64,000 nt of DNA, from assembly GCA_964036195.1 (NCBI GenBank), contig OZ038460.1, positions 7,071,504 to 7,135,503 on the forward strand. Direction: 5' to 3'. A program made the translations under genes and the position numbers. The notes under the pieces were generated by a model. It saw only the letters and a list, made by a program, of their open reading frames with translations. It made no database searches and was not told the origin of the DNA. This document shows positions 5,577 through 64,000 of the stretch, piece after piece. How positions within the stretch are numbered: position 1 is the first letter of the stretch; each line of letters starts with the position of its first letter. Source of the stretch: Sphaerolaimus hirsutus. Its lineage: Eukaryota > Nematoda > Chromadorea > Monhysterida > Sphaerolaimidae.

Positions 5577-8500
5577 GTTGAGGAAAATTTCGAAAAGTTG
5601 CGTTTTAAACCAGATCCAGGCAAACTGAGTGAAAAATGTTTTGGTGGTTGATTCGAAATGGGACGTGTGTGGAAAGATCACCGACGTAAATATATGGAAC
5701 TGTTGGAAGATAACAGAAAACAATTTGTTTTGCAAATTCATAATGTTTCATTGTTTGTTTATTTTATTTAGTAACGTATTTACGTATTTCTCACCTTTGG
5801 CAAGTTAGGTAAATGCGTGAATTAAATACGTGAACTGCATCCCAAACTCGCTGTGAATGAAACTAGGTATTCAGTGCGAAAACAAAACAAACCACCGAGA
5901 TAAAGTGGACCAAATGACGGCACAACATGAAGCAAAAAGCGATAAACAACAAATTCAGCCAATATGAGCGCCAAAGTCATTTAACCTACAAAACCGCTTG
6001 CAAAAATTTGAAATAAATATTCTAGCAAGCCACGTTCACACCACCGCGGCCAATGTGTGCAAGTTATCTTGTTCTTGCCGCGTTGACCCCGCCCAGCCCA
6101 GACGCTCCTGCAGTCGTATTTTATTGATAATTTGTGACTGAAAATAGAGCGTGACGGAACGACGAACCCTGGAAAATGAAAACCAGCAAGGCTATTATTG
6201 CAAGCGCTGATATGGTAGCGAATAATGATTTCAAAAAAGACGCAAGCAAATTAGGTAATAATTTAGGTGATCTCCAGTAGACACCTTCCACAACACGCAC
6301 CATGCTGTTAAAAGTACTGACCTTTAAAAAAAAAACGTAAACGTAAAGTATTTTATCTTTACTCACCACTGAATGCAGAAAACGTAAAGTAAATTTTTTA
6401 ATTTTACGCTGCGTAAGAGGTGAGTAAACGTAAATACAAGTAGTTTTACTCAGGGAAGATTAAAAACGATATATTTTCCGATTTTGTACCTAAGGAAACG
6501 TAAAAATGAATAAAAGTAGAAGCGAAAGTAGTCGCTTTCCCTACCTATCGCAACTTCGATCATTTCCGCTGCCATTTTTGCAGCCGTTTCAATTCGTTTG
6601 AGTTGTTTTTGCTTTTGACGCACCGAAATTTTCTTCTCAATTACGTTTTCAGTACCCGCGTATTCACTTTCAAAAAGTAAGCCAGTAAGTGAGTACCGGT
6701 TTTGGGGGGAGTAGGCATAGACGTAAATATAGACGAGTATACGTATTTATCGAGTAAACGTAAAAACGTTGGCAACTATGACACACACTTTGACATAAAT
6801 TCTGCAAGTAAAAAGTGTCAACAAGTAGGTTCAACAAAAAGTTCGGTAAGTATTAAAACGATTTTGATGTCAATTAGTGTGTGTGGGGAAATTGAAACAA
6901 TAAACGTCATGTATGGTGTAAATTCACAAAGTCACAAATTTCCCAAAATGATAACAGGTTTAGTATAAGGAAGATTAAATTTTCCTGGGATGTCAACAGA
7001 TTTCCCCTTGGCATTAATTCAAGGATTCAAGCTTTTATGTTTTTATTTACCCTTTCACAAGTATAAGAAAAACAGAAATCAAACCCCTAAAGCGGACAAA
7101 GCAGAAAGTGAAAACCAGTAATAATTCTTGAAGACACGATTCAAACCAGAATCTTAAACGCAGAGAAATTAAAATGGCGATACAACGAGGAACCATTAAC
7201 AACAAGGCAGCAGTTTGTCGAGTAAACGATAATTACATCAAATAATTTCAGTTTCAGAATTTCAAGTGTATGTATCAGAAATACCCAGGGGCCAGATTTA
7301 ATTGGTGTGCACTTAGCCACGGAAAATAAACGGGGGTCTGCCCATAGCGCAAGTAATCTCTCAGTGCAAGTAATCTACCTACTCCCAGTCAGAGTGTTAG
7401 TGTATTTGGATAGCTCCGCAATGGATGGCCTCCAAGGGGTTCATATAAATAGATAGCAAATCGCTCCTCCAAAGGGATAGATAGCTGAAAAAATCTATTT
7501 GGTGGTCGTTGGTGATCAATATACCCATAGGCTTTTTCAAGGTGTAGAAAAAGAGGGAGCATAATAGCAAAAAATAGGTGAAAATAACTAAAAATAGTTA
7601 TATAAGCGCATATACAGCCAAAAATAGTTGAAAATAGGTAATAATTCACATGACCGATAATTATTTTGAAATCTGTAAAATCACGATAGTGGTTTTTAAG
7701 GTGAAAACTTATTAAAAAGTGCATTACTTGCGCTGGCAGTTTACTTAGAAATAAACTACCAATCTCCAAGTCCAGAATAATCCTTAGCCCCGGGACGTAT
7801 CCAGGATTCTTGAGCGGGGGGGCTGCTTGTTTACGGAGCCCGGCGAACGGGGGGCTCAGCCCCGCCCCCTAAAATTTTACCCACATGGTAGCGGAATGGC
7901 GCCATGGCGCTGGCGCCATTCGTAGGCGCCACGCCATGGCGCCATTGGCGTTGGCGTTGGCGCCAGAAAGCGCACATATGTATGTAAATATACTTGCGTA
8001 TAGAGCGAAAAACAGGCCAATTAGTCTATTGAATAGTGAAGTGAAAGTACGAGGACCGGGATAGAAAGAATGAAAGTGAATAGAAAGTCTATTGAATCTA
8101 CCAAGAATACATCTGCGGGATGGGAAAATGCGCGCTTGCGCGCAAAAATTTTTACATTACACCTTCAAAAGTGGCACCAGAAGTTGCACTTTCACCGACT
8201 TTTTCATGTCTCACCCGGAAACGGGGGGAGGGCTGCAGCCCCCCCACGCCCCCCCCCCGTGGATACGTCCTCGCCTCAGCCAGAGCCTGAGCCGATCACT
8301 GCGCTCAAACTTTCGCCACTGTCACATCCACGTGTCACTGTCCAGGGACGTAGCCAGGATTTTCGAGCGGGGGGGGGCGGATTGTATACGGAGCCGGGCG
8401 AACGGGGGGGGGGCGGCGCCCCCCCCCCTAAAATTTGTAGTAGGGGAATAGCGCCATGGCGCTGGCGCCATTCGTAGGCGCCACGCCATGGCGCAACTGG

Positions 8501-8623
8501 CGTTGGCATTGGCGCCAAAACACCAGTATACATCTGTTTTTTACAGGACATATAGAGCGACATGGACAGGAATTGGGTTCATTTTCACTGGGTTTGAAGT
8601 CGCGGCGGCCGCCCCCCCCCTGG
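5577..8623. other. Spacer between MATH-BTB A and B: repeats, no gene seen
   Basis: 5760-7380 is AT-rich with recurring 'gtaaacgtaaa' words and no convincing exon. 7400-7720 is an 'agctatctatc / agcgatttt' repeat. 7793-8262 is a GACGTAGCC-type element with 'gcgccatggcgc' palindromes. 8263-8343 is GC-rich and continues the minus-strand frame of MATH-BTB B up to a TGA at about 8276. Confidence 0.6.
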
Positions 8624-8633
8624 CTACGTCCTT
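8344..8633. mobile_element. 290-bp TIR element with 10-bp TSD, ends in the MATH-BTB B coding region
   Basis: Ends AGGGACGTAGCCAGG and CCTGGCTACGTCCTT. Flanks GTCACTGTCC (8334-8343, 8634-8643) are a perfect 10-bp duplication, longer than hAT and closer to Mutator-like insertion. The centre has 'gcgccatggcgctggcgcc' palindromes. The TAG stop of MATH-BTB B comes from its terminus. Confidence 0.85.
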
Positions 8634-11600
8634 GTCACTGTCCAATCACTATGATTGGGCTTCTTCTCAACAATTTGAGCGACCCTCTCCAAAACCATCA
8701 CCAGACTCTGCTTGCTCAATCGCGCCAGGTCGTTTTCCCTGATGAACTGGATGCACGTCTCGCCCGTGTCCAACTGCTGCATGCACCAGTCGTCGAGCAT
8801 AGCCGAGTTGTACTGGGGGCAGTCCCAGACCCTGTCAAATGTCAAATATAATGCTAAGTGTCAAAGGTCATGTTAAATGTCCTGCAAGATGCCAAACGTT
8901 TGCCATTTTACAGGGCATTTTACATGACTTTTGACACTTTGCATGACATTTGACATTTTACAGGGTCTGGGACTGGCACCTGGTCGGCGATGAGCAGCCT
9001 CTCGAACACGGCGCCCATGTTGACAAGGAAGCGCTGCGTGCACAAGTGCCGCTCTGCCAGCGCGCGGATGTGGGGCACCAGGAAACGGTCGGCCAGCGAC
9101 AGAACCGCGATCGCTTCGGCATCGTCTGCGTTTGGGGGGTTGCCAGTTTGAAGGGCCTGAGTAAAAAATGTCAAAAACCTTTTATAGATTTACATTTTCC
9201 CCCTTTTTTCCATAATGGAAAGAAAAAGAAAAAAATTATTTCATTAATATTTTCTCTGCATTTTTAAGATAATTTAAATATATTTTCATTCTGAGATTAT
9301 ATTTTATCACATTTTCTCAAATTCAAACTCAAATTACATTTTCTCAAACTCAAATTTTCTAATTACATTTTCTCAAACTCTTTCTCTTATAATTACATTT
9401 TCAAAGCTAGCATGGGTGGGTGCTTGTACGGCGAGCGCACTTGCAGAGAAGTTATAGTTAATTGCAGAGCGAGCTTAAATGTAGAGAGAGTTCCGGCCGT
9501 TCAACGGGCTCTGCAGGGGTATTTTGTCTCAGTACCCATTTGTTTATTTGCTAATTGTTTTAACAAAATGGGTACTCAATATACTCGGCGGACCGCAAAG
9601 TATGCGCCCAAAATTACTTATGTCTTGGTCTTACCTTCACAAAAAAAAATATTTTAAAAACAAAAAGGCGGAGTCGCGTACAAGCGACGAATGTTTTTTC
9701 CCGAAAAGTTTTTCTTTTTTTGCTTCAAAATTCAAAATTTTCAATTTATTAACGATGATGTCATGATGGTGTTTCCTTCAGAACTATGCTTAGCCTGCGG
9801 TCCGCCGCGCCGAGTATACCTATGGGACAAATGTGACGCGTGAAGCTTTTAAACAGAACTGGAGCGATAGACACCAATAAAACACGAAACAATCTATCAA
9901 CAACCTTTGAACGATGTGGTGGTCAGCGCGATCATGTTGAGCATGACCCGGAAAGTGTCCGCGTCGGCGCCCCGAATCTGCAACATGTTCCGCTGGCTCT
10001 CCACACTCTGCTGCCACTCCGCGCCCAGCAGAATCCGACTGAAGTAGTCCGAGTGCAGCGACAGCAACTGCGGGAAAATGATATCTCAGCCGGGGAAATT
10101 TCGATCTTCCCATTTAGAATAATAGACATGAAACAACTGTAGACATTTTAAGTAACGAATTTCGCAATTTGTGTCTAAACATAATTTGATATTATAGACA
10201 TGAAAGCAGCATGGAACGAACGGCCTTGTCGACGTGCAGCACGGTGCCATTGTCGAACTTCAGGCGCACGTCATTCTCGCCACTTTTCTCCGCAAATGTT
10301 TTCGGCGCCGGTGGCACACTGTATTTTATAAGCATTTACTACATAGGTAATGTGAAAAATTTAAAAAAACGGGATTCAATAAGAAAACGAGAACGCACGT
10401 AATTCCGACAACACGGTGCAAAATTACTTTGGCATCGACGATTATACTTTTGCCCACAGGCGGCGTCCTCTGAAAGTGTACGGTATAAACCCATAAAAAT
10501 TTCTTATAATTATAACATCAAAGCCAATTCACTAACAATTTGCATGGAAACATCAAACGGCCGGGCATAGACTGTGCGTTTTTTTACGCCGCACACACCG
10601 CGGTGGCCCAAGGATGTATTATTCTCATAACGCGAACATTTCATGGCGAAAGCGTCGAGCACCGCGCCGAAGTGCACCTCCCATCTGTTGGACAGGCTGT
10701 CCTGCAGCGACGCGCACTCCAGCGAGGCGCACAAGTACGGCTCCTCCGAGTGCTCGTCCTGGCGCCACCGCAGTCGGATGTGCCTGCAATCACATTGTAA
10801 AGTGGACAGTAAACAGTACTGGGGGCAGATGGATAGCTCAAGCATTTAGGGGTGGTTACTAGGGTGTCAAATTTCCGTTTTCCGTTTTTCCGGCTCATTT
10901 TCCGTTTTCCAGCTAAATTTTCTGTTTTTCCGGCTTTTTCCGTTTTCCGGCTCAATTTTCTGTTTTTCCACCTTTTTCCATTTTCCTTTTCCACCTCATA
11001 TTCCCTTTTTCCGGCTCAACCGTCTGTTTTCTGTTTCTGCCAAACTGGGCCAAACTGCATGCAGGTTTTCAATTATGTTAATTTTTTCCACTTTCCATCA
11101 AAATTTCAGCAATGGTTACCATTTCCAGCAAATTTCAGCAATTTTTTCCGTTTCCATGCAAATTTTGTTCATTTTTCCGTTGCCGGTTTTCCGGCATTGT
11201 TTTCCGTTTTCCAACCACTGAATTTTTTTTTGACACCCTAGTGGTTACCCACAACACACTAAGACCTAACGAAAATACTTCAGAATTCCGGCATAAACTG
11301 CCCATTTCAATACTTGTATCTGCACCTGGCTATTTACCAGGCCCAAAATTTACCTAATTAGCAGGCAGCTTTCTGACACCTGACACTCCCTACATGCACA
11401 CAAGCCAAAACCTGATAAAACAGGATTTTATTGTACCCTGCATGTCAGGCGTATCCAGGATTTTTGAGCGAGGGGAGCTGCTTGTTTACAGAGGCCGGCA
11501 AAGGGGGGGGGTTGGGGGCTCAGTCCCCCAAAAGATTTAACCTTATTTAGAGGCAGAATGGCGTGTTGGCGCTGGCGCCATTCGTAGGCGCCACGCAATG

Positions 11601-14600
11601 GCGCCATAAGCGTTGGTGCTGGAGCACAGAAAACACTATATGCATGTAAATATACATACATAAATATAGTGCGGTTGGCACACCATTGAGTGCATTTAGC
11701 TTTGATTTGGGATGTCAGAAACCGATTTGTAGAGAATACCTCTTGTGTAGTTGAACGATGTGCACTCGCGCACAAAATTTCTACAAACAACGCGAAAATC
11801 GGTACTGAAAGTTGTATTTTCCTTCATGTTTTCTTGTCTCACTCGGGAATGGCGCTCCACACGCTGAAATGTCAACTGGTTTCAGTGTCAACTCGATTTT
11901 AGCTCAATTTTGGTTCCATGACAATTTCAAGGGCACATGCGTAGGGTGTCAACTTTCCGTTTTCCGTTTCCGCTTTCCGCAGGCAAATTTTTTTCCGTTT
12001 CCGTTTCCGTTTTCCGGCTGCTAAGTTTTTTTTCTGCTTCCGTTTCCGTTTTTCTGGCTCATTTTCCGTTTTCCGGTTAAAATTTCAGTTTTTCCGCTTT
12101 TTTTTCTGTTTTCCGGCTCAATTGTGTGTTTTTCCAACTTTTTTCCATTTTCTGGCTCAATTCTCTGTTTTCTGTTTCAGTCAAACTGGTAAACATGCAT
12201 GCAGGTTCTCACTTATGTGAATTGTTTCTATTTCTAGCAAGATTTCTGCAAATTTTTTGATTTCTGGATAAATTTCTGCAATTTTTTACCGTTTCCAGCA
12301 AAATTTCAGCAAATTTTTTCTGTTTCCGGCATAATTTCAGCAAATTTTTCCGTTTCCGTTTTCCGGGCTTTCATTTTTCCATTTTCCGGCAGGTGGAAAT
12401 TTTTTTCCGTTTCCGTTTTCCGGCAAGTGCAAATTTTTTCCGTTTCCGTTTCCGTTTTCCGCCAAAAAGTTTTTGTTGACACCCTACACATGCGACAATG
12501 TCGAAACGGAATCAAGTTTTCCATGTGCATTTGAACATGGTTTCGCAACCCATAAACTGAAACCTTGATGAAAACCGGTTGGTGCAGTTGACATCAGTTG
12601 ACATCCCAATGTCAACTAGTTAAATGGTCTTCATCAAGATTTAAGTTTATGGGTCGCGAAAACTTGTTCAAATGCACATGGCAATATTGATTCCTTTTCG
12701 ACATTGCCACATATGCACTTGAAAATAATCCTGCTACCTAAATTCAGCTAAAATGATTTGACTCCAAACCAGTTGACATCCCAGAATTTCCAGCGTGTGG
12801 AGCGCCAATGGGGGGGTGGTGCAGCCCACACCCCCTGGAGACGCCACTGATGCCAGGCACATGGCGCCGGACATGCATGCATGTCATGCTCTCGCTAGCG
12901 CCAGACTAGCCCTAAAATTGCAAAATGAGAAATTTATTGTGAGGCCTTGCTTTTTTTGGATCCAATAACGAACCCGGACATTTGAAATTACTAACTACTG
13001 ACATCTGTCGGCAGCAAGACCACAAATGCATGGCAAAATCCTAAAAAACAAACCATTTTAGGCCGCCGATATCCTTAGTGCGGGTACACTGATCGTAATC
13101 CAATTGACCATGGACGTCAAAGTGGTACGCGATAGAGCCGACAGCCAATATGGCTGCGAGGTAAATAAGGGAAGGAACAAAGACCACGGTTGTTAAAACG
13201 GGGCCAGGCCTGATACGCACACGTGCCCGATACGCACATATGCCCGTTTTTTTCACTTGACACTTTTTCAAGTGATTTTCAGATATGAGTAATATCAAAA
13301 AAAGTTGCGCGATGACATCAGTGAACTTTTTTCACTTCACTCAAATCTGAAAATCACTTGAAAATGTGTCAAGTGAAAAAACAGTGAAAAATAGCCATTT
13401 TTCACTGTTTTTCACTTGACACTTTTTCAAGTGATTTTCAGATATGAGTGAAGTGAAAAAAGTTCACTAATGTCATTGCGCAACTTTTTTCCACTTTACT
13501 CATATCTGAAAATCACTTGAAAAAGTGTCAAGTGAAAAAAACGGGCATATGTGCGTATCGGGCACGTGTGCGTATCAGGCCTGGCCACTGGAACAAGTGA
13601 AAAAAACGAAATGCAAATGCAGTGCAGTGTGTGAGACAAAAATACAAAGGATGTTAGCATACAGCAGCGAAAGCAGATGCACAGTGTGTATTATGCAGTG
13701 TATACACACCTATCTACCTGCAAGTTTTCCTGAAAGTTATGAGGAAAAAATAACTCCCTCCCTTGAATAACTCCCCACCCTTGAATAACTCCCCCCTCAA
13801 AAACTCTGACGAAAAAATAACTCCCCGGGGGACTTATTCAAGGATATACGGTACGCAATTACTGAGTAAATACGTTTACGTTTCCTTCGGGAAAAAATAC
13901 CAGTACCTACTCACCATTACGCGTACTTTTTGAATGTACGGAATGCAGAAACCGTAATTGAGAAATAGGTATTTGCGGCGCATAAAAAGCAAAAACCACT
14001 CAAATGAACTGAAACGGCTGCAAAATTGGCAGTAGGATTGATATAGAATTAGCGATGGGTGGGGAAAACAACGACTCCCGCTCACAGGGGATTTTGGGGT
14101 TAGCATTTTAGGGGGGGTCTACACTAGCACGTGTTTATATCTCGGGAACCGCCTCGATGAAAAATGTTGAAATTTGGATATATTATGGTTTCAGGTCGGG
14201 ACTCTCTCAGATTTCGACGAAATTTTTCTACGAGCCCCCAGACCGCAGTTAGGGTGGGTCTATAAAAAGATGGTCATTTGCGAAAATTTTGGGTGTTGCT
14301 CAGAAAATGCAAACTTCGCACATCAATTACTCGGCTAGTTCTGGGCCGATTTTGATCGTTCAACACTTAAAATGATCGGCACAACCTGTAGATTCCGTTT
14401 TTGTGGTCGGATAAGTGATGTCTATAGTCCTTATATCGATTTGACCCGGTTTGTCAACACGAAAAATAAATTTTTCTAAACATGCTATCATATACTTTAG
14501 ACTACAAGAATTCATATAAAACAAAAATGAGTTTAATATCTCTTTCCAATCAAAAATTACAGTGCTTCAAACTTTTTCCTCCCATCCACACAAATAACCA

Positions 14601-22648: not shown

Positions 22649-23877
22649 CATCACAAAGTACTGTCACCTGTCTGATTTACCTGTATATGTTGACTCATGA
22701 CCATATCTGGTAGCATTTGAAAAAATAAAATTACCCTACGTTTAACCTTTTAAAATAAAACCGTTTTTGAAAAAAAACGCTGTTTATTCCTTGTTGTTGA
22801 AAAAAAACTTTTTTCGGCCATCGCTAAATATTCATTTCTGAAATTCAAACAAGAAATAATGAAAAATGATTTTGCTGGTCAAGTTTGGTGATCGTTGCAC
22901 CACTGCACGACCGAGGCCTAGTACACATCTAAACCCATTAGTATTACACATCTAGACCCGCCACCCATCTAATTATACCCTTCATACATCTATGCTCTTT
23001 ACACGTCTAAATACCCCATAGATGCGTAATTGGGCTTAGATGTGTGATGAGTCTGATGGTGTGATAATTTCACCACTGCCCGACTGAGGCCTAGTATACA
23101 TCTTAACTAATTACACATCTGGACCCATAACACATCTAAGCCCATTACGCATCTATGGGGGTTTAGATATGTAATGGGCCTAGATGTGATGGTTAGAATT
23201 AGATGTGTGGCGGCTATAGATGTGTAATCGTTTTAGCTGTGTACCGGACCCCACTACACTTGTACACTATTGTTGTGCAACCGCATATTGTGCCACCAAG
23301 CGACCTGTTAGAAGTGGACAACTGTCGCATGCACCAGTCGTCTAGCTTCGCCAAGTTGTAGTGGTCGGCGATGAGCACCTTGCTGAACACGGCGCCCATG
23401 TCCTCCACCTGGCCGTCCACGTACAAGTGCCGCTCTGCGAGCGCGCTGACGCGGGGCATTAGGAAACGGTCGGCCAGCGACAGAACCGCAATCGCCTCGG
23501 TATCGTCTGCGTTTGGGCGGTAGTGATGTAATGGCGATTTTTTTTATTCAGGCTTATTTGTACTGTAAACCCACTGGTGGTAGACCCCGCCGTTGTGTAT
23601 TTTAGGGGGTATTGGCATGGCAGGACGTTGGCGGCAGCGGGTTTACATGACTAATACAGTACATACAGTAATACAAGTAGTACAGTACAGTTTAGCTAGG
23701 GCTGCAGTGCGCGTGCACCCACATTGTTTTTGGCAATATTTTGATGATACCACTCAAAGAAAAATTGAAAAAATAATCATTTGTTACGCGTTAAACTTGT
23801 TTTCAATTTTTCTTTGAGCAGTCTCATCAGAATAGTGACAGAAAATATGCGAGTGGGTACTAACTGCGGACCTAGCT

Positions 23878-26967: not shown

Positions 26968-27880
26968 TAGTGATGGAATGGCGCCATGGCGCTGGCGCCA
27001 TTTGGGGGCGCCAAAGGGCGCCGCGCCATGGCGCCATTGGCGCTTGGCGCCCTTTTTCTGTGGCGCCCTTGGCGCCTGGCGCCCACATTCTGAAAGGCGC
27101 CATGGCGCTCTTGGCGCTTGGCGCCCTTTTTCCGTGGCGCCCTTGGCGCCTGGCGCCCTGCTTTTAAAGGGTGCCAAAAAGGCGCCAGCAGGGTTTCAAG
27201 GTGAGTGCTGTATAAATGGAAAAAAGATGAAAAACGCATTCATGGATGATCTGAATTCGCCCTAAAAGTGGACGAAGTGGTGTGAGTAGGTATAATTCTT
27301 TTGTGCAACGGTTCATGAGATGTGTCTGACAGATCATAAGACGAGAATGATGGAACATTGAACTTGCAATATCATAAATAAACAGATTCAAATCGTTGCA
27401 ATTCCGTTTTTTTCCATTTCGAGGAAACATTGATTGGAAAAGTCAATTTGAAGTGAATGGATTGTTGTCAAATGACAATATCCATTGTGTTTGAATTGTC
27501 ATGTGCATTTTACTCGAATTTTTTTGTTGCTAGTGTTGTCTTTGTTCATTACACCCTGGAGAACGCAAATTAAGTAGTGAATGCATGTGCTAGGGTGCTG
27601 TAGAAACACTTTTAGCACACGCATTGTGTTGTATGCACTTATTTATCCTGGCGCCTGGCGCCCTATTTTTCAAATGGCGCCATGGCGCCCTTGGCGCTTG
27701 GCGCCCTCTTTCCGTGGCGCCCTTGGCGCCTGGCGCCCGCTTTCCGAATGGCGCCATGGCGCCCTTGGCGCCTGGCGCCCTTTTTCTGTGGCGCCCTTGG
27801 CGCTTGGCGCTCACTTTCTGAATGGCGCCATGGCGCCATTGGCGCCTGGCGCCCTTTTTTCTGGCGCTTTTCCATCACTA
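26968..27880. mobile_element. hAT-like element, TAGTGATGGAA ends, ggcgcc arrays (copy 1)
   Basis: Perfect 8-bp duplication ATCCCAAC (26960-26967, 27881-27888). Both ends carry about 200 bp of near-perfect 'ggcgccatggcgcc' text able to form strong hairpins, around a unique AT-rich centre (27190-27650). The interior shows chance long open frames full of A, P and W, which are not genes. It lies in an intron of MATH-BTB C. Confidence 0.9.
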
Positions 27881-28165: not shown

Positions 28166-28481
28166 CTGGGGGGCAGTGCCAGACCCTGTAAAAGACCCTG
28201 TAAAATGTAAAAGACCCTGTAAAATGTCAGGTGTCATGTAAAAGACCCGGTAAGTGTAAAGTCTCAAATATCATGTGAAAACCCTATAAAGCAAGATTTG
28301 GATGTAGACACATGGGATTTGGATACACATGACACTTTACAGGGTCTTTTACATAACATTTGACACTATACGGGGACTTTTACATGACACCTGATGTTAA
28401 AAAGGATTTTTTACGTGACACATGACGTTTTACAGGGTCTTTTACACTTTACATGGTTTTAACAGGGTCTGGGACTGGCGC
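28166..28481 (-). mobile_element. Introner-like element forming an intron unique to MATH-BTB C
   Basis: On the minus strand it runs from GCGCCAGTCCCAGACCCTGT (GT donor mutated to GC) to GGTCTGGCACTGCCCCCCAG. It carries the same inverted termini and 'TTTACATGACATTTGACA'-type arms as the element at 8813-8979. It interrupts the MATH-like exon after codon 'AAG'. Paralogues A and B read straight through the aligned position ('RLDEHWEEPYL'). Confidence 0.85.
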
Positions 28482-37469: not shown

Positions 37470-40400
37470 TCAATCAAGCGACTCCACCCACTTCGCTTCA
37501 TACCAATTTTGGAAAACTGCCAAATGGTACATTTCCACAACTGAAGACCCAATGCAAGAAACTTGCAACGTTTCATCCACCCCAATACTATAAGTTGCTG
37601 CGCTGTCTCCAGAATCTTGTGACTCTTTTGATAAACTGGCAATTGGCGCCTGTTTGATGGAGTCTATCATTGGCACATAATCCAGGGTGCCTGGTGAACT
37701 TTCATAGCCGCCATTTGTTACAGCTGTCACCGTGAATCTGTATTTTGAGCCATTTTTAGGTGTCTTGGTGGAGATGAGTACGTACCGTATTTCGTCTGAC
37801 ATCTTACGGAAAATATGATTGACGAAATACGGTACATAAAAAGTGACGTACTTATTTTATGCGGCAACTTATGTAAAAAAAATCGAACCTATGAGGTTGC
37901 GATGTATCCAAATTGTCAATGTAGGCAGGTCTGCGCTTTATACTGCCGCAATCCTCGCCATCTATGGTAAATTTGTATTCTGAAAACAACAATAATACGA
38001 TAAAACCAAATTGATCAAAGAACAAATATCCCCGACAGCCAATCAGATTCACATTTAATGGCGGCCCGCACACTAGTTGACACACGTGTGTGAACTGGCT
38101 TGTGTCAACTCAGCTTTCGGCTTCAGAGCGATCGACAAATGCACATGCGGCAATCTTGACAATAAATATTACGGCATGTGCATTTGAAGGGTGTGCTTCT
38201 AAAAGTAACGATCTACAAATTTTTCAAATTTGAGTTAGGACCATTTTTGGGGTCCCCATAAAAATGCGCTTCAAAAATATATATAATATGTGGGGGGTGC
38301 GAAATTCAATTTTGAGATATGGGGGGTCGAAAAAAGCAAAAAAAAATCGCAAAATACAGTTTTTGAAATTTTAAAAGTACCGATCTACAAGCTTTTTCAG
38401 CTTTTGTATTTTTTAAAGTACCGATCTACACACATTTTTCAAAATTGTACTTCTAAATGTACCGATCTGCACTTTATTTTTTGTGCTTCTAAAAGTACCG
38501 ATGTCAGCTCGGCATCATCAGCAGCAAAAACTCAATTTGTGCTTTTTTACTATGGGTAAAAGTACCGATCTACATCTATCTGATTTTGTGCTTTAAAAGG
38601 TACCGATCTACATGCTATTACCAATTTGTTCCTTTAAAATGTACTGTACTACAAAAAATACGATTCACTAAATGTTATATAGCTAGTGTTATGTGTATAA
38701 ACAATGATTATACCCATGCATGTGGATACCCAACAATATGGCCGAAATACCCATACCCAAAATTCCCATACCCAATACCCATGTATGGGTATTGCATACT
38801 CCAAACTTTCAATTGCGATTATCTCAAAATCGATTTTTTTTGTAGATCGGTACATTTAGAAGCACACCCTTCATTTGCAGATCGCTCTACAACACGTAAA
38901 GCCAAATTTAAGTTGAAACAGACCAGTTGATAATGTCAACTGATGTGGGCCGCCACTCGGGCGGATTAGAATTTCAATTAAATGAACCCAGGCATAAACG
39001 CGTCCGATAAACTAAAACTAAGGCACTCAAAGACAAACCTCTGACAATATTCTCCTGACCAGTGACAAGCCACCTGAGAACGCCACCATCGTTTCCCTTC
39101 AGTTCAAACGTCAAATTTACAGGCCGCGGCAGTAATTCCGTCATGAACGTTTCCATGGCGCGCATACGTTCCCGCAACGTTTCACATTCGTTCAGGTGCC
39201 TGAAAAGGTGTGCAAGTTGAATAGAAGGGGTATCCAAATTGAAGTTCTGATCGAAGTCATGTCCCGCCCCGCATCATTTTAGAATGGAGTTATCAATTTT
39301 TGGTAGCCTTATTTGCGGGAAAAATGTAATTTGTGTTGAGAAATTGTCTTTACCATTAAAAGCGCACAACATAAATATTGTGTGACACGAAATAAATGCA
39401 AAAAAGATTCGAATGTAGGAACCAATAAAAATGTAGTGACTACAGTAATGAACTTAGTGACAAAACGTTCGCGATACACTCAGCGTACGGCCAGACCACG
39501 GTGAATGTACGCCATCCCGTCTGATCTGGCAAGTCAAGCACCTTCGGGCCGGGTTAGTACTTGGATCGGAGACGGCCTGGTGCTGTACGCTCTTTTTGCA
39601 CTTTTTTTTGCTATAGCGAAAATAGGTTGTGGAAACAACAAACATGACATGGCAACGTCTGAACATGGCATGGCACTCGCACAACTCCGGCGCCTGGCAG
39701 TCGGAATTTCAATTTTTTTTAAATTTTACACAATTTTAGCACCGTAAACGAAAAAATTGGGGGAAAACAGTAAGGCACAGCAAACCTGTTACCCCAATTC
39801 CACCAACCTCGCACATGACCACTGGTACTCCCTTTCACAATGAGCCAACTTATTTGTCAACTGGTGCATAATATCTGCAGCCGCGCTATTCACATCGGTC
39901 ATTTTGTCCAGTTCCAATCGCTGCTCAGTCACTAACAACTCCAAACGTTCGATTCTAGTGGTTACGGTAGCAAAATCGACGTTGAGAGAGTCTCTTGGGG
40001 TGTTCCTGGTTACGGTAGCTGACCTGCGATATCGAGATGTTAATGGTGGTCAGGTGGCAGTCCCGCAGCATGAAAAGTAACATGTATAGTGGCAAATGTC
40101 ATGTAAAATCATAAAATGTCAATTTTTAAAAAGAAAATATTCTTTACTGAACTTTTGACATTTCTCGTGACATTTGACGCTACAACTTTCAGAGTGCGCA
40201 TGTCGAGGTTCAAAAAACTATACAGACCTATCGTTTGTATTATGACGCACGTCCTTCCACCATCTTTGTATTTTTTCAGCTGCAGCCACTTTTGTCGGAT
40301 CATTAGATATCAGTGTGCTCTGCGTTTTTCATACATTACGGGATAAAAATACCATTCTACGACTGGATTTTGTGATGGGTGGGAATAAACATGTTAAATT

Positions 40401-50722: not shown

Positions 50723-53700
50723 ATGACCACCAAGGGCACCTACAAGCTCACGTCCGACCCCAAGGACAAGGTCGCTGTCTGGGATGAGTCGATGTAAAGC
50801 ACCGTGCAGCGCTGCACTGCTACTGCATTGCGTCGACTAGTGATGTAAAAGTACCAAACCAAAAAAGCACCATGGCGTTTGGCGCATGGCGCTTCTTACA
50901 TCACTAGCGTCGACAATGGTGGAAAATCTTTCCAAAATTACTGTCCGAAACATTGTTAAGAAAGGAATAAATATTTACATGCGAAGTGCCTGCCGTGGCA
51001 ACGTGCGACATTTTGTCCTAATTTGGATTCTTGCCACAAGCTTTCATCATGTCTACCTAATTTATAGTCTGCGTCAAGATTTGCACTCGAAAGAAAATTT
51101 CCGAAAACGCTCGAAATGGACCCCTCCCCCGATTAAATGAACGAAAATTTTTGTAGTTATGACAAACCAAACAGAAAACATTTGTCAATCGGCACTTAAT
51201 CAATATCGATTGCATTGTAAATACATCAACATGGCGTAAATACATTAGTAGGCGTAACAAATAGCCCAAATATCACCCAACTCAAACCCATCCCAACTAC
51301 ACCAGGTAACGTTCGCGGGTCCATTCGACGGCACGAACGAGCCCAAGGTCACACTGAAGCTGACCAATGCGGACGACAAGGAGCGCGCCTGGAAGGTCAA
51401 GTGCACCTCGAACGCCATGTTCAAGATCAGACCCGCCGTGGGCACCGTGGACAAGGCCGCCACCGCCACTGTTAGTGTAGGGCTGCTGGGCTACGCGCTG
51501 CTCTGGGGTCAGTCCCGTGCCGCCCTGTAAAGTGTGAAATAAGTGTGAAATGTGTCAAATGTCATGTAAAATCTCAATAAAAAAAGAAGATTTTATTACT
51601 AACTTTGCAGGGCAATTGGCACTTTGCCTGACACTCTGCATGACAATTGACACTGTCTGACACATTCTATGACAATTAACAATTTTGTATGATATTTGTC
51701 ATTTGACACTTGACTTGACATTTAAAAGGCTTGGGACTGACACATGGCAGCATGTATAAGACGCCCTATCAAGTGCATGTGTTAAATCTGGTGCTACTCC
51801 CACCCAGACCATGTAAAATAGCTGGTAAAATGTGAAATAAATGTCAAGTAAAAGTGATGTAAAAGGCCCATAAAATCAAGTAAAAAACTTATAGTATTTA
51901 CCAGTCGTTAGACTTTATTTTACAGGCATTTTACCTATATTACTTTTGACAAGAAGTTGACAGGGTCCCACATCTCTACCTCAACTACACTGGACATCAA
52001 GTCACATTCAAACCACCCCACCGCAGTGCACGCTGACTCTAAAGGCCCTCAAAGAGGCGGACGTCCCTGCGGACAACTACCACCTGTTCTCGATCTACCA
52101 CATCCCGCTGGGCGAGACCAAGGACGGCCGCAAGTGCTGGGCTGAGCACAAGGGCGATCCGGAGGGATCTTGTCGCCTGCCTGTGGTCAGTTGAGCGGCG
52201 TGAGGAAATGGAATGGAGTGGGAAATGGGCACTGCACTATTCCGCATGTAAACCCATCCCGCATGTTGACCCGGAACACATTTAATTATACCCGGCATGC
52301 TGAAAAAAGACAACAAAACTTGATAGACTTGATGATTTTGAAGGTGAAAATCTATAAGAAGTATGAAAATTAGCGATTTTGTGTGAGTAAAATTGCTCAA
52401 AAGCGCTGCAAATAGCTAGAGAGCTAAGCAATTTGCGGGGGGGGGGGGGTTGTTCAGGGGAAAGTAGCCAAAAAATTGCCCTAATAGATAAATATATAGC
52501 TGGACGGTGTGGGTGGGGTCACCCGCCCCTCTCTTACCCCTGCGGGTATAATGTGTCAATAATGGGTCTACATGCGGGATGGGTTTACATGCTTAATAAG
52601 CTTGACCCTGGGAAATGTGCTAGTGGTAATAGTGGTATATTGTGCCTTCACACGAAATTAAAAACAACTCTAAATCTGCTTAGAACGCATTTGAGTTTTC
52701 TACAATCAGTTGGCAGTCAACTACAGTCGACGGAGATTAAAAATCACTCATGGTGGAAAAGTCAATGTTCAAAGCTCATTTATTGAGTTTTCGAAATTTC
52801 GTGTGAAAACTAGTTTGCACAGGACAATTGACCAACGTCAGATTTATTTAGTAGTCATGCAATGGCCCCATCCGGAAAATGAAAGTTTAAAATGATGCCA
52901 ATACCGTATTTCGTCAAATAGAACTTCCAATAATAATTTCTAATATTTCTGATCTTCCATTCGAACGACACCTCCCACAAAAATAATAGAGCGGCAGCCT
53001 CCAACAGAACGCCACCACCAATAGAACGGCTGGTTAAAAAGTTGACGAAAAAAGAACGAAGCCATTCTATTAGAAGAAATACGGTAGCACAGGGCACACG
53101 GCATACGGTTGTATGGCGGTCATAATGCTAAGTGACCTCTGCCGCCATGCATTAATAGCTTTAATGCTAATCCACGCAACATTTGAGTAGCTCTCATTTT
53201 TCGTCATTTTGCCATGCTGCTTTAACAAACGTCGACTGGCCGTTTGCCATCCGTGCAATGTCCCGCTTGTCATCCACACCAGCACTTATTCAAGTTCAGC
53301 CACTGACCATTGTCCACCCCAACTGAAAAATTAACCAATCCGCGCGCAGACATTCGACAAGGCGGCGGGCGGCGGCGAGAAAAAAGATGCCAGCAAGGCC
53401 GCCGACAAAAAAGATGAGGAAAAGAAGGACGAGAAGAAGGAAGAGGAGAAGAAAGACGACAAAAAGGTGAATTCACCATATTACCTCGAATTACCCCCTT
53501 GAATTAGCTCCCCATTCGAAATACCCCCAGGTCTAAGCGAGTTAGGGAGATAATAAACCCCTCGAAATACCCCACCCAAATTAAGTGTAATGGGAATGTA
53601 CATTACAAACACCGTAGTGTGTAAAACAATGTAATCTTTGTGTAGAACAATGACTTCCAAAAAGTCCGCCGAGTTTAATGCAGAACACGCGTTAGACACC

Positions 53701-57257: not shown

Positions 57258-60200
57258 TCACCTCGACATGGTACTATTGCTCCTGTGGCTGGCGGCGCTG
57301 GCGGCGCTGGTGGTGCTGCTGCTCGCCACCCCAGAGTCCCCCGAGCCAGACGCAGACGAACCCTCGACTTGGCTCCATTGGGACGCGGACCCTGAAATGA
57401 GGGTGAATTTGATAGCAGGTGAATGGGCTAGTTAATAAAACACTGGGCTAAATCTATTTACCTATTTATTATGGTAAATTGGATATGATTTCACTTCGAA
57501 TTCAAGCGCATGAAAGCTTTCCAAAAATTTATTCATTTTTATAATCTTTATTTTGAAAATGTTGTCTAGGTGATCTGCCGTTCGAAACCACGATTTAGGA
57601 ACAGAAAAGGAGCTTAAATGATAAGCATCCAGTCGTGTAAAAGCAAAAACACTCATTCACAAGTATTTATACAACCCCGTACTCAACCACCACAACCACC
57701 ACCCCCTCACCCACCAGCTCCACTATTAACCATCCCAGCCCGATTGTGTCCATCAACAGCATCACCATGTGCCTGCGCACCTCCGCCGCGCTGCCCTCCA
57801 GCCCCATCCGAGGGCGGGATCAACTCCGAACTGTTGGTGGCGTCGGAGCCGGCGCCGCCGCCGCCGCCCTGCCTGTGCGGCTGGTCGTCGCCGTTGCCGG
57901 TGGCGCCGCTGCCAGCTAGTGCCGTTGATGAGTCGTCGCTTGAGGATAGCACGTAGAGGGGTACCGTTCTGAGGGGGTGAGAGATGGGGTTGTGGGTGAT
58001 AGTGCACATTAAATATCGCTAATGTGTTTTGACCTTTCGGAGACTTGAATGTGGGTTAACGCCTCGACGTAGGCTCCCTAGACATGTCAACCCGCTCGAC
58101 ATGTAGACCCGGTTGACATGTAATCCTACCAGGTCGAAATGTATAGACCCGTCCGACAAGTATCCGGGTCGTACGTGTCCAGCGGCAGGGCAATAAAAAG
58201 TGTATACTTTTCATTTTTTACATTCTTGTCACTTAAAAAGTGAAAAGTAAAATACCTCTCAACCCAAACACAATCCAAAAAATCCACCCACCCACCTATA
58301 AATCGCCTGCAGGGCATCCTGTCTACCCAATTCCTCTAACACGTCGCACAGGGCGCCCACGGTGGCTGCGTGCGGCGCGGCGGCCGCCCACTCGGCCAGC
58401 AGTTGATCGGTGCGCGACAGTTGCTGCCCAGTGGAGTCCACGTCGGGCACGTGCTCGGTCAGGTTCAGTTTCACTGCTAGGATCGACCTGTGGAAGTAGG
58501 GAGGGAGGTTTTTTGTGACGGTGGTTTGGAGTGTAATCCCTCCAACCTCCCATACTGAACCCCTGCAGTTGCCATGTAGGCCCAGTGCTCAAGTACGTGG
58601 CCGTACTTAAGCACCGGGTCTACACAGGCACCGGAAATTGCTCCTTGAGCACCGGGTTTACTTGAGCAACGGCACAGTTGGGATAGAGTTTCAGAGTTTC
58701 TTTATAGGGGATTCTTGAATAAGTCCCCCTAGGTAGATGTTACTCATGGGGAGTTATTCAACCAAATAAGAATTCAAAATCAGACCAACCAATCCCTGCC
58801 CATCGAGTCAGCAGAATCCAGGAGAGTGGCCAGTTCCCTCCTGCCAGCGAGCGGCATGTGCGCCACGGACACATCCAGACCCAAAGTCAACTGTCCAGCC
58901 ACGTCGACGCTGCCGAAGCAAACCTGCGGCATGAACAGAGGGTGGTGTGTAAAATGTGCGGCTTTGAATTGAAAACAACAGTATTTACTTGAAAAATTCC
59001 CCTGGGGAATGATTTTTTCGTCAGACATTTTTGAGGGGTGGGGGGCTATTCAAGGGGGTATTTCAGAGGTATTATTCGAGCGGGGGGATTTTTTTAACTT
59101 GCCTAACAGAAGGGAATTATTCAAGTGCAGGGGGAATTATTCGAGTAAATACGGTATTCGGAATTGTGAAGCCCATTATCAACCGACAGTTTTCATCGAA
59201 ATTCTCTCGAAACCATCCCTTTTCCTCCCCCAAAATAACCCCAAAAACGAACCACACTGGTAAAGGGCTCCTCCTGATCGCCGCCAGCACTTTTAACAGT
59301 GACCCCCTCCTTCCTCTGCATGTGCATCACCGCGGCCGGGGGGTACACCGCGGGGCGGGGCGCGTGCATGCGTAAATCGACCGGCGACAAAAAGTGTCGC
59401 TCCAGCGGCAAGCCGGGGGCCACGTCGGCGCACGTTTGTTCTACCTGCGGGAGGGGGGGGGGGGGGGGATGAAGAATTGTAAAATTTTATTGCAATACAA
59501 ATTATCGCGTTTGTGCGATTATGCGGCACGAACTGCGCAACGTTCAAAGCCAAAACATGCTTGATAGAAATAACGAAATAGCCAGGGACCAAATAAAAAC
59601 GGTCTGGCTATACAGTATCAGTATTTTACGACACAATGGGACAGCATAAAAATAATTCCTGGTGCCACTCAAAGTCCCAGTAAAATGTCAAATGTCATGA
59701 AATGTCAAAAGTCATGTAAAATACCCTGCATAATGGCGAACTATTTCGCATTTTTACAAGGCATATCACATGGTTTTTGACACATTCCACGACAGGACCC
59801 CCCAAAACCCACCAAATTGGCCAAGTCCTCCAGAAAGTAGAAGCAGCTGGCGGCGTGGTCGGCTGGCCCGCGCACCACGATCTCCACACCGTCGTTGCGC
59901 GACGCCAACAGCCGCAGGAACGCCTCCATGCGACCTGCGATCGATCGGGGGTGTTGACTGAAACAGTTTGCACATTGGAATGTGAATTGTATCCACTTGA
60001 GGGGGGGGGCTAATCGAATCATGACTGGCCCTGCCAAAGAGAATGGTACTCACGTATATTGTATACGTGGCTACCGTAAACTTCCGAATATAACTACAAT
60101 GAAAATGAGGAGTTGCGAACAGTGTAATGGGCAAAGTAAAACATGTGATACACGGGTTCAGACAATCACACAGTAAACAATGAGCAATGACAAAACCATT

Positions 60201-63200
60201 TTTGTTCTTTCAGAAATAAATTGCACTAAAACAAATCAATCGACAATAACTGAGTGTTTGCCCCAGGTGCCAGTCCAAGTGTCAAAAGTGAATAGAATAT
60301 TTTCTTAATCACATTCGACACTTGAGTTGCCCCAGGAACCCCAAATTGCCTGGTATGTTGACTTCGTTCCGAAACTGCATAAAATACGTAACAACACAGG
60401 TTGGTAGACAGCGAATTCCTAACTACTCCATATAAAAAATCGCAATCGACCACAGATGACAAGTCACCTGCCACAAAATTTATTAATTAATACTCGATAT
60501 ATCTTTATGACTTTTCGATTATCAATATTCGATTTAAGAGATGTCATTTTCAATATGATATAAATGAAGCCCGAAACGTGAGGAAAACGGGTTCAGCTTT
60601 CGATGTACCCTCAACATGTGAAAAAAACAACAGAATGATCACATTCGATTACGAAGATGTCATGCATGTGCGAAATCTATATCTATATATCGATACCGAT
60701 TTAACCGCCGCCACTATGCACACAACCACAAAAAAACCTCAAACCCAAAAACCCCAAGTTCACCCCCCCCCCCAACCAACCAGAGCACATCTTGGAGCAC
60801 CCCCTCCACTGGTGGAGTTCGGCATCGAGGGGGTCGTGAAAGTCCTGCATGGACTGTCGCAGGGCGGTCTGCACGCGCGGCCACAGAGGCTCGAATTGAC
60901 GCTCCATGCCGCGGGCAGCTTGCACGCGCACGCCCCCGTAGACTGTCTGCGTGGGGGGTTGGGGGGTTGGGGTTGGGAGTGGTGGTTTCTGTGTTGATAT
61001 TAGTGGACACATATTGATAAGGATTCAAAGAGATTTCCAAATCTATCTCCAACTTGAAAATTGAAATACATAATGTAACGAAATATAACGCAACATTGCA
61101 AAAAAAGGATTCTACGACATTCCCCACGAACACATGGGGGCAGTCCCACCCAGACACTGTAAATTGTAAAGTTAGGTGTCAAATGTCATGTAGAATGTCA
61201 TGCAAAGTGTCAATTTTCATGACAGATGTAAAGTGTCAATTGTCATGCTCAAGTAAAGTAATAAAATATTTGTTGTTTTTGTTTTGATTGACATTTTACT
61301 TTACACTTTACAGGGTCTGGGATTGGCACCTGGGTGGCGCAATAAAAAAACCCCAGACACATTTTGCCTGTCACCTAATTTGACCCATCTCACTCAAATT
61401 ATCCCCCACCAACCTGCGGAGGGACAGCGACGCCCACATTCGACTGCAGCGGCTGCCAGGCGTCCCTGGGCCAGTCGACCATGTTGAACGCGGCGAACTC
61501 GTGTTCGTACTCGTCCAGCGGCGCGCACATCTGCAACGTGTGCAGCACCGACAGCAGCTGGTCGGCCGCGCCCGCGCCTGGGGGGGGGGTTATTTGTGTG
61601 TGAATGAAGCGATGTGGGTGGATGGTAGGGGATTGACATGCGTTTTGTATGAATGCCAAAAAGTGAAACGCATAATACCAGTGAAATGGTCAAATCTATT
61701 CGAACATCGCATCGCGATAAGACACATGTACAAAAACTGACTTTTCCACATGCTTTTTTATGCTTCCATGCCCACATTCGAAATAGAAAACGGCTCAATA
61801 TTCAACATGATCTACAGACTTTTTATATCAATACATGAATCTTTGCAGATCTTTTAGTTCATATAATACTCAAAAAAAGCTTAGGGATACGCCACATCTA
61901 GGGTGTCAACGGCCCCACACACGCTAGTTGACATCGACACCAAATGTCAACTGGTTCCGTTCCCAATTCAAAGCTTGCGTTTGAACGTCGTTCGTCGGCT
62001 CGTCGGCAAGCTTTAAATCGGGATCGGCACCAGTTGACATTTGGTCTCGATGTCAACTAGCGTGTGTGGGCCCAACATTCCGTTTTCCGTTTTCCGCAGG
62101 CGAAATCTTTCCGTCTCCATTTTCTTGCAAAATTTCATCAAATTTTTCTGTTTCTAGAAAATTCAATTTTTCTGTTTTCCGTTTTCCGGCATTTCATTTG
62201 TCCGTTTTCCGGAAAGTGCAAAAAAATCTCCGTTTCCGTTATCCGCTAAGTGCAAAAAAATTTCCGTTTCCGTTTTCCGTTAAGTGCAAAAATGTTTCCG
62301 TTTTCAGTAAAAAAAACGTTTGTGACACCCTAGTCACATCATTCCACGCTACCAAAAAACCCCACTCACCCGCATCAACCGGACACAACGGGGCCAAATC
62401 GTCAGCAGTGTAGCAACCAGTGATTCTAGCTCTAGACATGAACTCTGCACTTAGAAGGGTGCCAATCACGTGCGCGCCCAGCCATTCGGGTGACAAAACA
62501 ACCAGATCTAGTTCTTGGGCGTCGTTCTTGAGATAGACTACATCGCCGATTAGCTGTAGTTGTTGGACTACTTGCCTGGGGTGGGTGGGGGTTTGAGGAT
62601 ATATTGATATTGAAGAAGGTTTATTTTTAATTGTGAAAATGAACCATCGATCTAGCAGATTTTCAGATTGACGTGATTTGTCTGACAATTCTTTGTCGTT
62701 TTCTTTTTCTAAACAAAATAATCGGCTACTGTCACCAATAAACAATCCATTGATCAATTTCAGAATGAACAGCATGCTATTTTACATTCCCCATTTTGAA
62801 ATTTTTGTAAAATTTCCACTTTCATTTACCTGCAATGTGGCTCTCCAGCCAGCGGATTGACATCAGCCCTAATCCTCTGCATAAAATCAGGCCAGCCAAT
62901 AGCAGGAAGGCCGCAGAGAGGCGCCTTTCGCCGTTCCTGCGCCAAATATTGACTGGCGGTGTCGACTAGCGCCATTTGCCTGGGCAGGCGCGCCAGAACG
63001 TCCGTGCGCGCCTTGGCTAGACATTGGCGGAGTAGACGCATGCCTTGGGCGTTTGGCGACCCTGAGTGTGATGAGTTTCCAGTTTTGAAAATTGATGTTT
63101 AGTAGGTGAGTCATCAGTTGTGAAAACCCCAATTTGCCACGTTTCCCTAATTGTTTCAGACACTTTTGAACTCCAATTTCGGACGATTTTGAAGGAAAAA

Positions 63201-64000
63201 AACTGATTTCAATTTTTTTTCAAATCAAGGTTTGAAAAAATAAATCCCAACCCCAGTACAATACTCACCAAACAATCAACAAAACAACACAATCACCCAC
63301 CCCGCCAACTAAACACACTCACCAGTATCCACATAAACAATCTTCTCGTATATATCAAAGTCGCTGCCGAACCTCAGTCGCACAGTGCTTAACATGGCGT
63401 CCGCCTCGCCGCCGCCGCCGTTCCCGTTGGCCGACTGTTCCTCGGCATTCGTTGCTACAAGGATGACCGGGGCCCGTCGCGCTGACACGCCCATGTGGCC
63501 TGGGGAGGGGGGTTATTCGCATTATGGCAAGAAATGTTGAGGAGGAATGATAATTTTATTATACTCGGCTAGCCGCAAAGTATGCGCATAATCCTACTTT
63601 AATTGAATGAATAAAATCTTGTGATAAATTTCGTAAATTTTTATTCCATAGTAAGAACGAACTATTATGATGAATTTAGAAAAATAAGTTTTGGTTCATC
63701 ATTCAGATTGGTTATGGTAGGTTTCCATACTAAGTGGATGTCCGCCGAGTATGGCTCAAAATGTTTTTACGAGCAGCCAGATTCATGATTTTATCTTAAA
63801 TGGAACGCCGTTCGATCGGATGGTTTGCAGGCTTCGTGTCTTCGTTTAACATTTTACATGGCATTTTACATGACTTTCGACATTTTACAGGCCCTGGTAG
63901 TGACACCTAAATTCAACACTCACCAATAGGTTCCGTCGCGGTCACTCTGCCAGTGAGAAAGTTCATCCAATAGAGAACGTTGGCATACTGCGTTTCCGTT
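57258..64000 (-). CDS. DAPK1: DAPK1-type death-associated kinase, C-terminal part (ROC end, COR, death domain)
   Basis: Twelve exons, entering from the right edge: 64000-63924, 63499-63323, 63061-62830, 62575-62370, 61577-61414, 60946-60781, 59934-59813, 59444-59253, 58923-58790, 58487-58296, 57968-57715 and 57391-57258. All phases agree and encode 682 aa. Order: end of the ROC GTPase-like domain ('YWMNFLTGRV', 'RRAPVILVATNAEE'); COR region ('VNPLAGE', 'LDLVVLSPEWLGAHVIGTLL', 'TVYGGVRV', 'GVEIVVRG', 'RHFLSPVDLR', 'CFGSVDVAGQLTLGLDV', 'DSMGRDW'); a death domain ('TVGALCDVLEELGRQDALQA'); a Gly/Ser-rich tail ending 'SNSTMSR', like the serine-rich DAPK1 end. The family acts in cell death, autophagy and wound responses. 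Kinase, calmodulin-binding and ankyrin exons lie beyond the edge. Several introns carry introner-related sequence. Confidence 0.92.
61134..61329. mobile_element. Introner-family MITE in a DAPK intron
   Basis: Plus strand: 'gggggcagtcccacccagacactgtaaa' to 'tttacagggtctgggattggcac'. It has the same termini as the MATH-BTB introners, inserted in the intron 60947-61413. Related half-elements occur in other DAPK introns at about 59650-59800, 60259-60335 and 63845-63900, and in CEP97 intron 9 (40024-40227). Confidence 0.65.
61899..62332. mobile_element. hAT-like MITE of the TAGGGTGTCAA family with a second MITE inside
   Basis: Outer flanks GCCACATC / GTCACATC (7 of 8). Immediately after TAGGGTGTCAAC a different foldback is inserted (about 61910-62074, 'ggccccacacacgctagttgacat' and its complement), after which 'ttccgttttccg' text resumes. 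It lies in a DAPK intron. Confidence 0.75.

Follow-up and report, generated by a model that had tools for sequence, protein, structure and literature searches.

Introners of the DNA-transposon type were described as repeated introns with terminal inverted repeats (TIR) and target-site duplications (TSD), and in most families the length of the mRNA was unchanged after splicing (Gozashti et al., 2022, PMC9860276). The family in Chrysochromulina carried its own 5' splice site, took its 3' site from a 4-bp TSD and had no TIR, and introners were reported in only two animal groups (PMC9860276). The family described here was similar to those introners in being made up of repeated predicted introns with TIR and a putative flanking duplication and, as in Chrysochromulina, the 5' site was carried and the 3' site was borrowed. 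It differed in its animal host, in its 3-bp CWG triplets, in its near-complete palindrome and in an asymmetry of the ends that gives the element a direction. The main text of PMC9860276 contained none of the words Harbinger, palindrom- and hairpin.

Introners of Amoebophrya carried short direct repeats at their borders as well as inverted repeats and were capable of forming hairpins, and both in Amoebophrya and in the larvacean Fritillaria many borders were non-canonical and the repeats varied (PMC7789003). In contrast, the present elements formed a single family, mostly with GT at one end and with AG from the flank. Huff et al. in 2016 reportedly described MITE-like introners in Micromonas and Aureococcus whose splice site came partly from the duplication; these algal introners are said to have longer duplications and other termini than the present family.

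Within the PHIS (PIF/Harbinger) superfamily, the NuwaI group was described with 5'-CWG-3' duplications, with TIR usually starting with GGG and, in that account, from animals only (Han et al., 2015, PMC4482050). Its members were presented as transposons with open reading frames for a DDE transposase and a Myb/SANT protein, and the examined parts of the paper made no mention of introns (PMC4482050). The present family shared with NuwaI the CWG triplets and an animal host, and differed from it in being short and non-autonomous; GGG stood at the beginning of one end only (GGGG at the 3' end, GTGC at the 5' end). Triplets, this one terminus and host together point to possible membership in the NuwaI group of PIF/Harbinger. 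No link between Harbinger elements and introners in animals was found among the literature matches listed (titles and openings of abstracts).

How new introns originate has long been debated, and few of them seem to be gained through introners in animals. The present family is very probably an introner, i.e., a non-autonomous DNA transposon (a fold-back MITE of ~165 bp) which creates spliceosomal introns by its insertion. The mechanism is already known as a kind, and the host and the form are unusual.

Predicted intron in MATH-BTB gene B

The window, i.e., the whole 64-kb stretch of DNA analysed (Table 1), belonged to a host genome of 348 Mb in 762 contigs. It contained three MATH-BTB gene copies (A, B and C), a C54 (ATG4-type) peptidase gene, an MSP-domain gene, and a gene which we take to be DAPK-like from its Death domain and a COR-like one, the COR match being below the cut-off. 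Gene content suggests an animal host, possibly a nematode in view of the MATH-BTB and MSP-domain genes. The exons of the MSP-domain gene were spotted by reading the plus strand and were confirmed at E 9.5e-14.

On the minus strand gene B read ...GCCGACCAG^GTGCCAGTCCCAGACCC...GGGTCTGGGACTGCCCCCAG^TACAAC..., with 167 nt between both marks (8979 to 8813). The insert followed GACCAG, started with GTGCC, ended with CCCCCAG and preceded TACAAC. The first-pass annotation had proposed that 8813 to 8979 is exactly one intron in B which is absent in paralogue C. The prediction agreed with the alignment of spliced B to C, which was gap-free for 207 DNA columns spanning the junction and in which C was uninterrupted (GACCAC-TACAAC); the amino acids that had been quoted for B and C were also correct. 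In unspliced B the frame stopped after 19 element-encoded codons, the length of the insert being 3n + 2. The spliced B protein aligned weakly to human SPOP (E 0.054), and was gap-free at the junction. An alternative donor at +18 (CCT|GTAAAA), used with the same acceptor, kept the frame and added six residues; because it also keeps the frame, the exact donor of B was placed by means of paralogue C and, weakly, SPOP. The donor so placed, CAG|GTGCCA, was without what we take to be the usual bases at +4 to +6, and is weak.

The insert was not a chance inverted repeat, because 156 bp of it could be aligned, at 87% identity, to the reverse complement of the insert itself, and it was found again at 39 other places in the genome at 83-91% identity. 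The genome search with the element returned 1854 candidates; scores were computed for 40 of them, namely those 39 places and the copy in the window. It had also been claimed that the intron begins and ends with the element's own termini, and that the element brings both splice sites. This was so for the start of the intron and for the GT donor, which lay in the element, but not for its end: the element proper had 164 bp (8816-8979), the last 3 nt, CAG, look like one copy of a target duplication, and the AG acceptor lay in this flanking CAG.

Table 1. Location of the window and, in window coordinates, of gene B, its element and the other copies of the family; exon limits, introns and duplication copies are predictions
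Feature	Position	Strand	Remark
Window, 64-kb piece	7071504-7135503		Coordinates of contig C16
Gene B, exon preceding the element intron	8980..9156	-	Start placed from a TCAG acceptor
Left CAG, putative target-duplication copy	8980..8982	-	Final codon (Gln) of the upstream exon
Copy 1, element proper, 164 bp	8816..8979	-	GTGCCAGTCCC...GGGACTGCCCC, near-palindromic
Right CAG, putative copy of the 3-bp target duplication	8813..8815	-	Source of the AG acceptor; CWG match family-wide
Gene B downstream exon, BACK region	8624..8812	-	End uncertain, first stop inside repeat-like sequence
Paralogue C, uninterrupted counterpart of the B intron	23360..23361	-	GACCAC|TACAAC
Copy 2	61138..61332	-	Within a larger predicted intron of the DAPK-like gene
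Copy 3	59659..59806	-	Close to the start of a larger predicted intron of the DAPK-like gene; 5' end eroded
Copy 4	51506..51745	-	Within a predicted intron of the plus-strand MSP-domain gene
Copy 5, 316 bp including terminal CAG	28166..28481	-	Paralogue C, MATH exon; insertion probably exact
Copy 6, diverged	40053..40182	-	Flanked by two coding-like stretches (IQ-like motif by eye)
Copy 7, diverged	51788..51994	-	In the same MSP-gene intron as copy 4
Copy 8, fragment	63843..63908	-	In or beside the DAPK-like gene

Other copies in the window

At the site of copy 5, A and B were uninterrupted, and C rejoined across the copy gave 43 residues which aligned to B without an internal gap (14 identical); left of the junction, C and B shared two of nine residues. 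Copy 5 began with GC and not with GT, and an in-frame stop followed it in its host C. The presence of the element is probably reciprocal between B and C, because copy 5 appears exact in C while A and B read through. As judged from these alignments, the case for an insertion in a coding exon which is absent from the homologue is firm for B against C and weaker for C against A and B. Pfam searches of the three minus-strand frames around copies 4 to 7 gave nothing above the cut-off.

Only two of the eight window copies had an exon-exact look, and the other six were inside or next to larger introns, or had coding-like stretches on either side. The latter would agree with old introns having been invaded by the element, with erosion leaving little else of them and with loss of the intron from C (or, at the other site, from A and B); intron loss is common in animals. 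This course of events is nonetheless unlikely, as it would require two losses in opposite paralogues, neither B nor the rejoined junctions of conserved genes had residual intron sequence next to the element, and the flanking triplets tended to match within copies.

Abundance and structure of the element family

A 22-nt pattern of the AG-flanked 5' end had 3311 matches in the genome with up to one mismatch, and its reversed control had none. A scan of genome contigs and of viral contigs with a TIR pattern gave 0 matches, in a search from which records of the same genome were possibly excluded. The copy set was drawn from 70 of 80 fetched loci (eight palindromic duplicates that had been fetched again, L049 and L050 were left out), and comprised 82 copies with both ends recognisable and with distinct left flanks. 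A consensus of 165 bp was obtained from 64 of these 82 copies (155-192 bp long). It consisted of GTGC, a palindrome and CCCC, its arms matching throughout except for a one-base offset at the centre. The TIR were present in this consensus, and the remaining asymmetry was in the outer 4 nt, GTGC at one end and GGGG (read inward) at the other. The folding energy of the consensus was -141 kcal/mol, and the median divergence of the copies was 8.5%. In a separate count of end types in 63 paired copies, 50 had one GT and one GG end, three had both GT, one had both GG, and nine had other combinations.

The exact GT..AG limits of the copies in exons would also be produced if the element spread as RNA without a DNA transposase, by the reverse splicing that has been proposed for introner-like elements of fungi. 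Such a route is hardly credible for a family with TIR whose copies also occurred outside exons and whose CTG-flanked ends, found exactly at 563 sites, would have a duplication without AG. Fungal introner-like families, for their part, were described as having neither TIR nor TSD (PMC9860276).

Several loci were peculiar in their arrangement. At C1:30745338-30745507 and at C1:30980504-30980673, GTGCC-type ends faced each other ~170 bp apart, i.e., with a donor-type end on both sides. L018 and L041, ~270 kb apart on contig C7, were near-identical gene pieces with the element at the same codon, and therefore one insertion was probably duplicated along with the gene. L060 and L061, in opposite orientation on C1, were near-identical loci with two copies each, one of them in a zinc-finger exon.

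Flanking triplets

Without realignment, the flanks of the 82 copies were CAG/CAG in 31, CTG/CTG in 8, mixed CAG/CTG in 8 and other in 35. Identical CWG triplets were present on both sides in 39 of the 82 copies, with CAG/CAG as the commonest pair and CTG/CTG as the next. Where both flanks were CWG (47 copies), their middle bases agreed within the copy beyond chance (p = 5e-4). The loci retrieved with the AG-flanked 5'-end pattern were selected for AG; with these loci dropped (CAG/CAG 12, CTG/CTG 7, mixed 8), the match of the middle base had p = 0.061. Because of this rise in p, the identification of the CWG triplets as a target duplication is likely rather than proven. A sliding test of the duplication, in which the right triplet was moved up to 2 nt towards a match, gave stronger figures and was rejected (CAG/CAG 34, CTG/CTG 10, mixed 8; p = 4e-5).

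In the CAG case, the donor GT corresponded to the first two bases of the element and the acceptor AG to the right-hand CAG. With CAG flanks on the sense strand, B and several conserved genes regained their exact reading frame once the element plus one CAG was removed. An overall excess of CAG over CTG was considered and rejected, as there was none on C1 (64 exact AG-flanked against 70 CTG-flanked ends among the matches listed). Random insertion, with mostly spliceable copies being retained in exons, would account for the near-equal numbers of both ends on C1.

Open frames at rejoined junctions

Open frames were evaluated over a junction of 2 x 90 nt, and the expectation came from control windows within the same loci, 300 nt or more from the copies. 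The 30 loci of contig C1 were the first exact pattern places along it, coding being ignored. CAG/CAG junctions had open frames in 14 of 19 cases in the 30 C1 loci (5.4 expected) and in 9 of 12 cases in the other loci (3.5 expected), and CTG/CTG junctions had open frames in 2 of 8 cases (1.6 expected). The other flank classes had open frames in 20 of 43 cases (10.8 expected); since they were above the control, some exonic copies are among them too. The GC content was ~0.55 at CAG/CAG junctions and 0.43 in the control windows. By extrapolation, there may be roughly a thousand exon-exact copies.

Openness of the frame by itself was discarded as a criterion, as without a matched control it was 25/34 in the sense and 20/34 in the antisense direction. 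The open frames counted with the sliding test, 15/21 (5.6), 10/13 (3.6), 3/10 (2.1) and 18/38 (9.7), were replaced by the strict figures above.

Insertions in conserved genes elsewhere in the genome

Rejoined proteins were chosen by eye, chiefly from 99 open frames at 59 copies, and were tested with Pfam in batches of 6, 10 and 7 (L070 twice), i.e., 22 distinct proteins, apart from two of window genes. The rejoined flanks of a Na,K-ATPase alpha gene (L078) matched 8zyj (E 5.5e-22) over 75 gap-free columns, those of NSUN6 (L080) matched 9imb (E 5e-7), although the part left of the junction comprised just four residues, and those of BPNT1 matched 2wef (E 0.0023); zero residues were gained or lost at the junction in all three. 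Matches to OSCP1 (PF10188, E 5.8e-19) and to a C2H2 finger (PF00096, E 1.8e-7) also spanned the junction, the acceptor of the C2H2 case being three bases past the first-estimated end of the element and having been picked after the spacing of the fingers was seen. Intron phases were 0 (Na,K-ATPase), 1 (L066) and 2 (OSCP1). Predicted introns at different positions shared sequence up to both borders in B, OSCP1, Na,K-ATPase, NSUN6 and BPNT1.

A family or solved chain spanned the junction at E < 0.01 in 8 of the 22 proteins (L017, L022, L059, L060, L078, L080, L071 and L013). Among them, the Tudor match of L071 (E 0.0066) was below the Pfam cut-off, the kinase match of L013 was just below it, and the match of L022 was SLC9B2-like (E 0.0076). 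The VWD match of L066 was weaker still (E 0.014), and the LRR match of L010 fell short of the junction. In the remaining 14 of the 22 rejoined proteins there was no junction-crossing match at E < 0.01, and for 12 there was no usable match.

In L013 (second copy) and L022 the right triplet was CTG, and AG was absent from the expected acceptor. The diverged copy at L013:2102-2284 had TTG/CTG flanks and cut an exon of a protein kinase at DVW|SAG. If this element were spliced out at its borders, these would be GT..TG; the exon is therefore broken, or else the intron is a non-canonical one.

These two loci, the weak donor of B, the in-frame stop of C and the fact that B and C are duplicates would all suit insertions that are unspliced and disrupt their genes, the hosts being pseudogenes or non-functional duplicates. 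Insertions in conserved genes kept frames open on both sides, however, and the spliceable CAG class was enriched in open frames whereas the CTG class was not, so that unspliced insertions are a very improbable general explanation.

Proposed mechanism and significance

The first-pass annotation had read the B intron as born by insertion, and this was the best-fitting reading given the thousands of family termini, the in-frame rejoining in conserved genes and the probable reciprocity of B and C. In the mechanism proposed, the element would be moved by a transposase of PIF/Harbinger type, similar to those of NuwaI with their CWG duplications and GGG termini, and the CWG triplets would arise as target duplications. 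The donor may have been born by a change of one terminus from GGGG to GTGC, the acceptor would be supplied by the duplicated CAG, and the insert would be removed by the spliceosome. Four configurations are predicted from the order of the ends and from CAG or CTG, and selection would leave in exons mainly the one that splices.

The evidence leans towards the wider proposition that one palindromic MITE family has given rise to introns in the order of a thousand in one animal genome. Spliceability would be set by the order of the ends (GGGG to GTGC donor) and by the middle base of CWG (CAG acceptor, CTG none), copies with CTG would be a built-in control of selection, and in the RNA both splice sites would be brought close to each other by a hairpin of ~157 nt. 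With a family so abundant in an animal and controlled internally (CAG versus CTG, and the order of the ends), the cost of new introns and the rules by which splice sites are created would become measurable in one genome. If the Harbinger link is true, a defined group of transposons with a known CWG target would be tied to the creation of introns.

Other repeats in the window

Long inverted repeats were present at 27431-27880 and 40922-41380, which were 96-98% alike and ~13 kb apart. A second repeat family was found near the MATH-BTB genes (7861-7956, 8413-8508, 11523-11618 and 48812-48907), with a GGCGCCATGGCGC-like core adjoining long G/C runs. The sequence surrounding the first stop of gene B resembled the end of this GGCGCCATGGCGC-core family.
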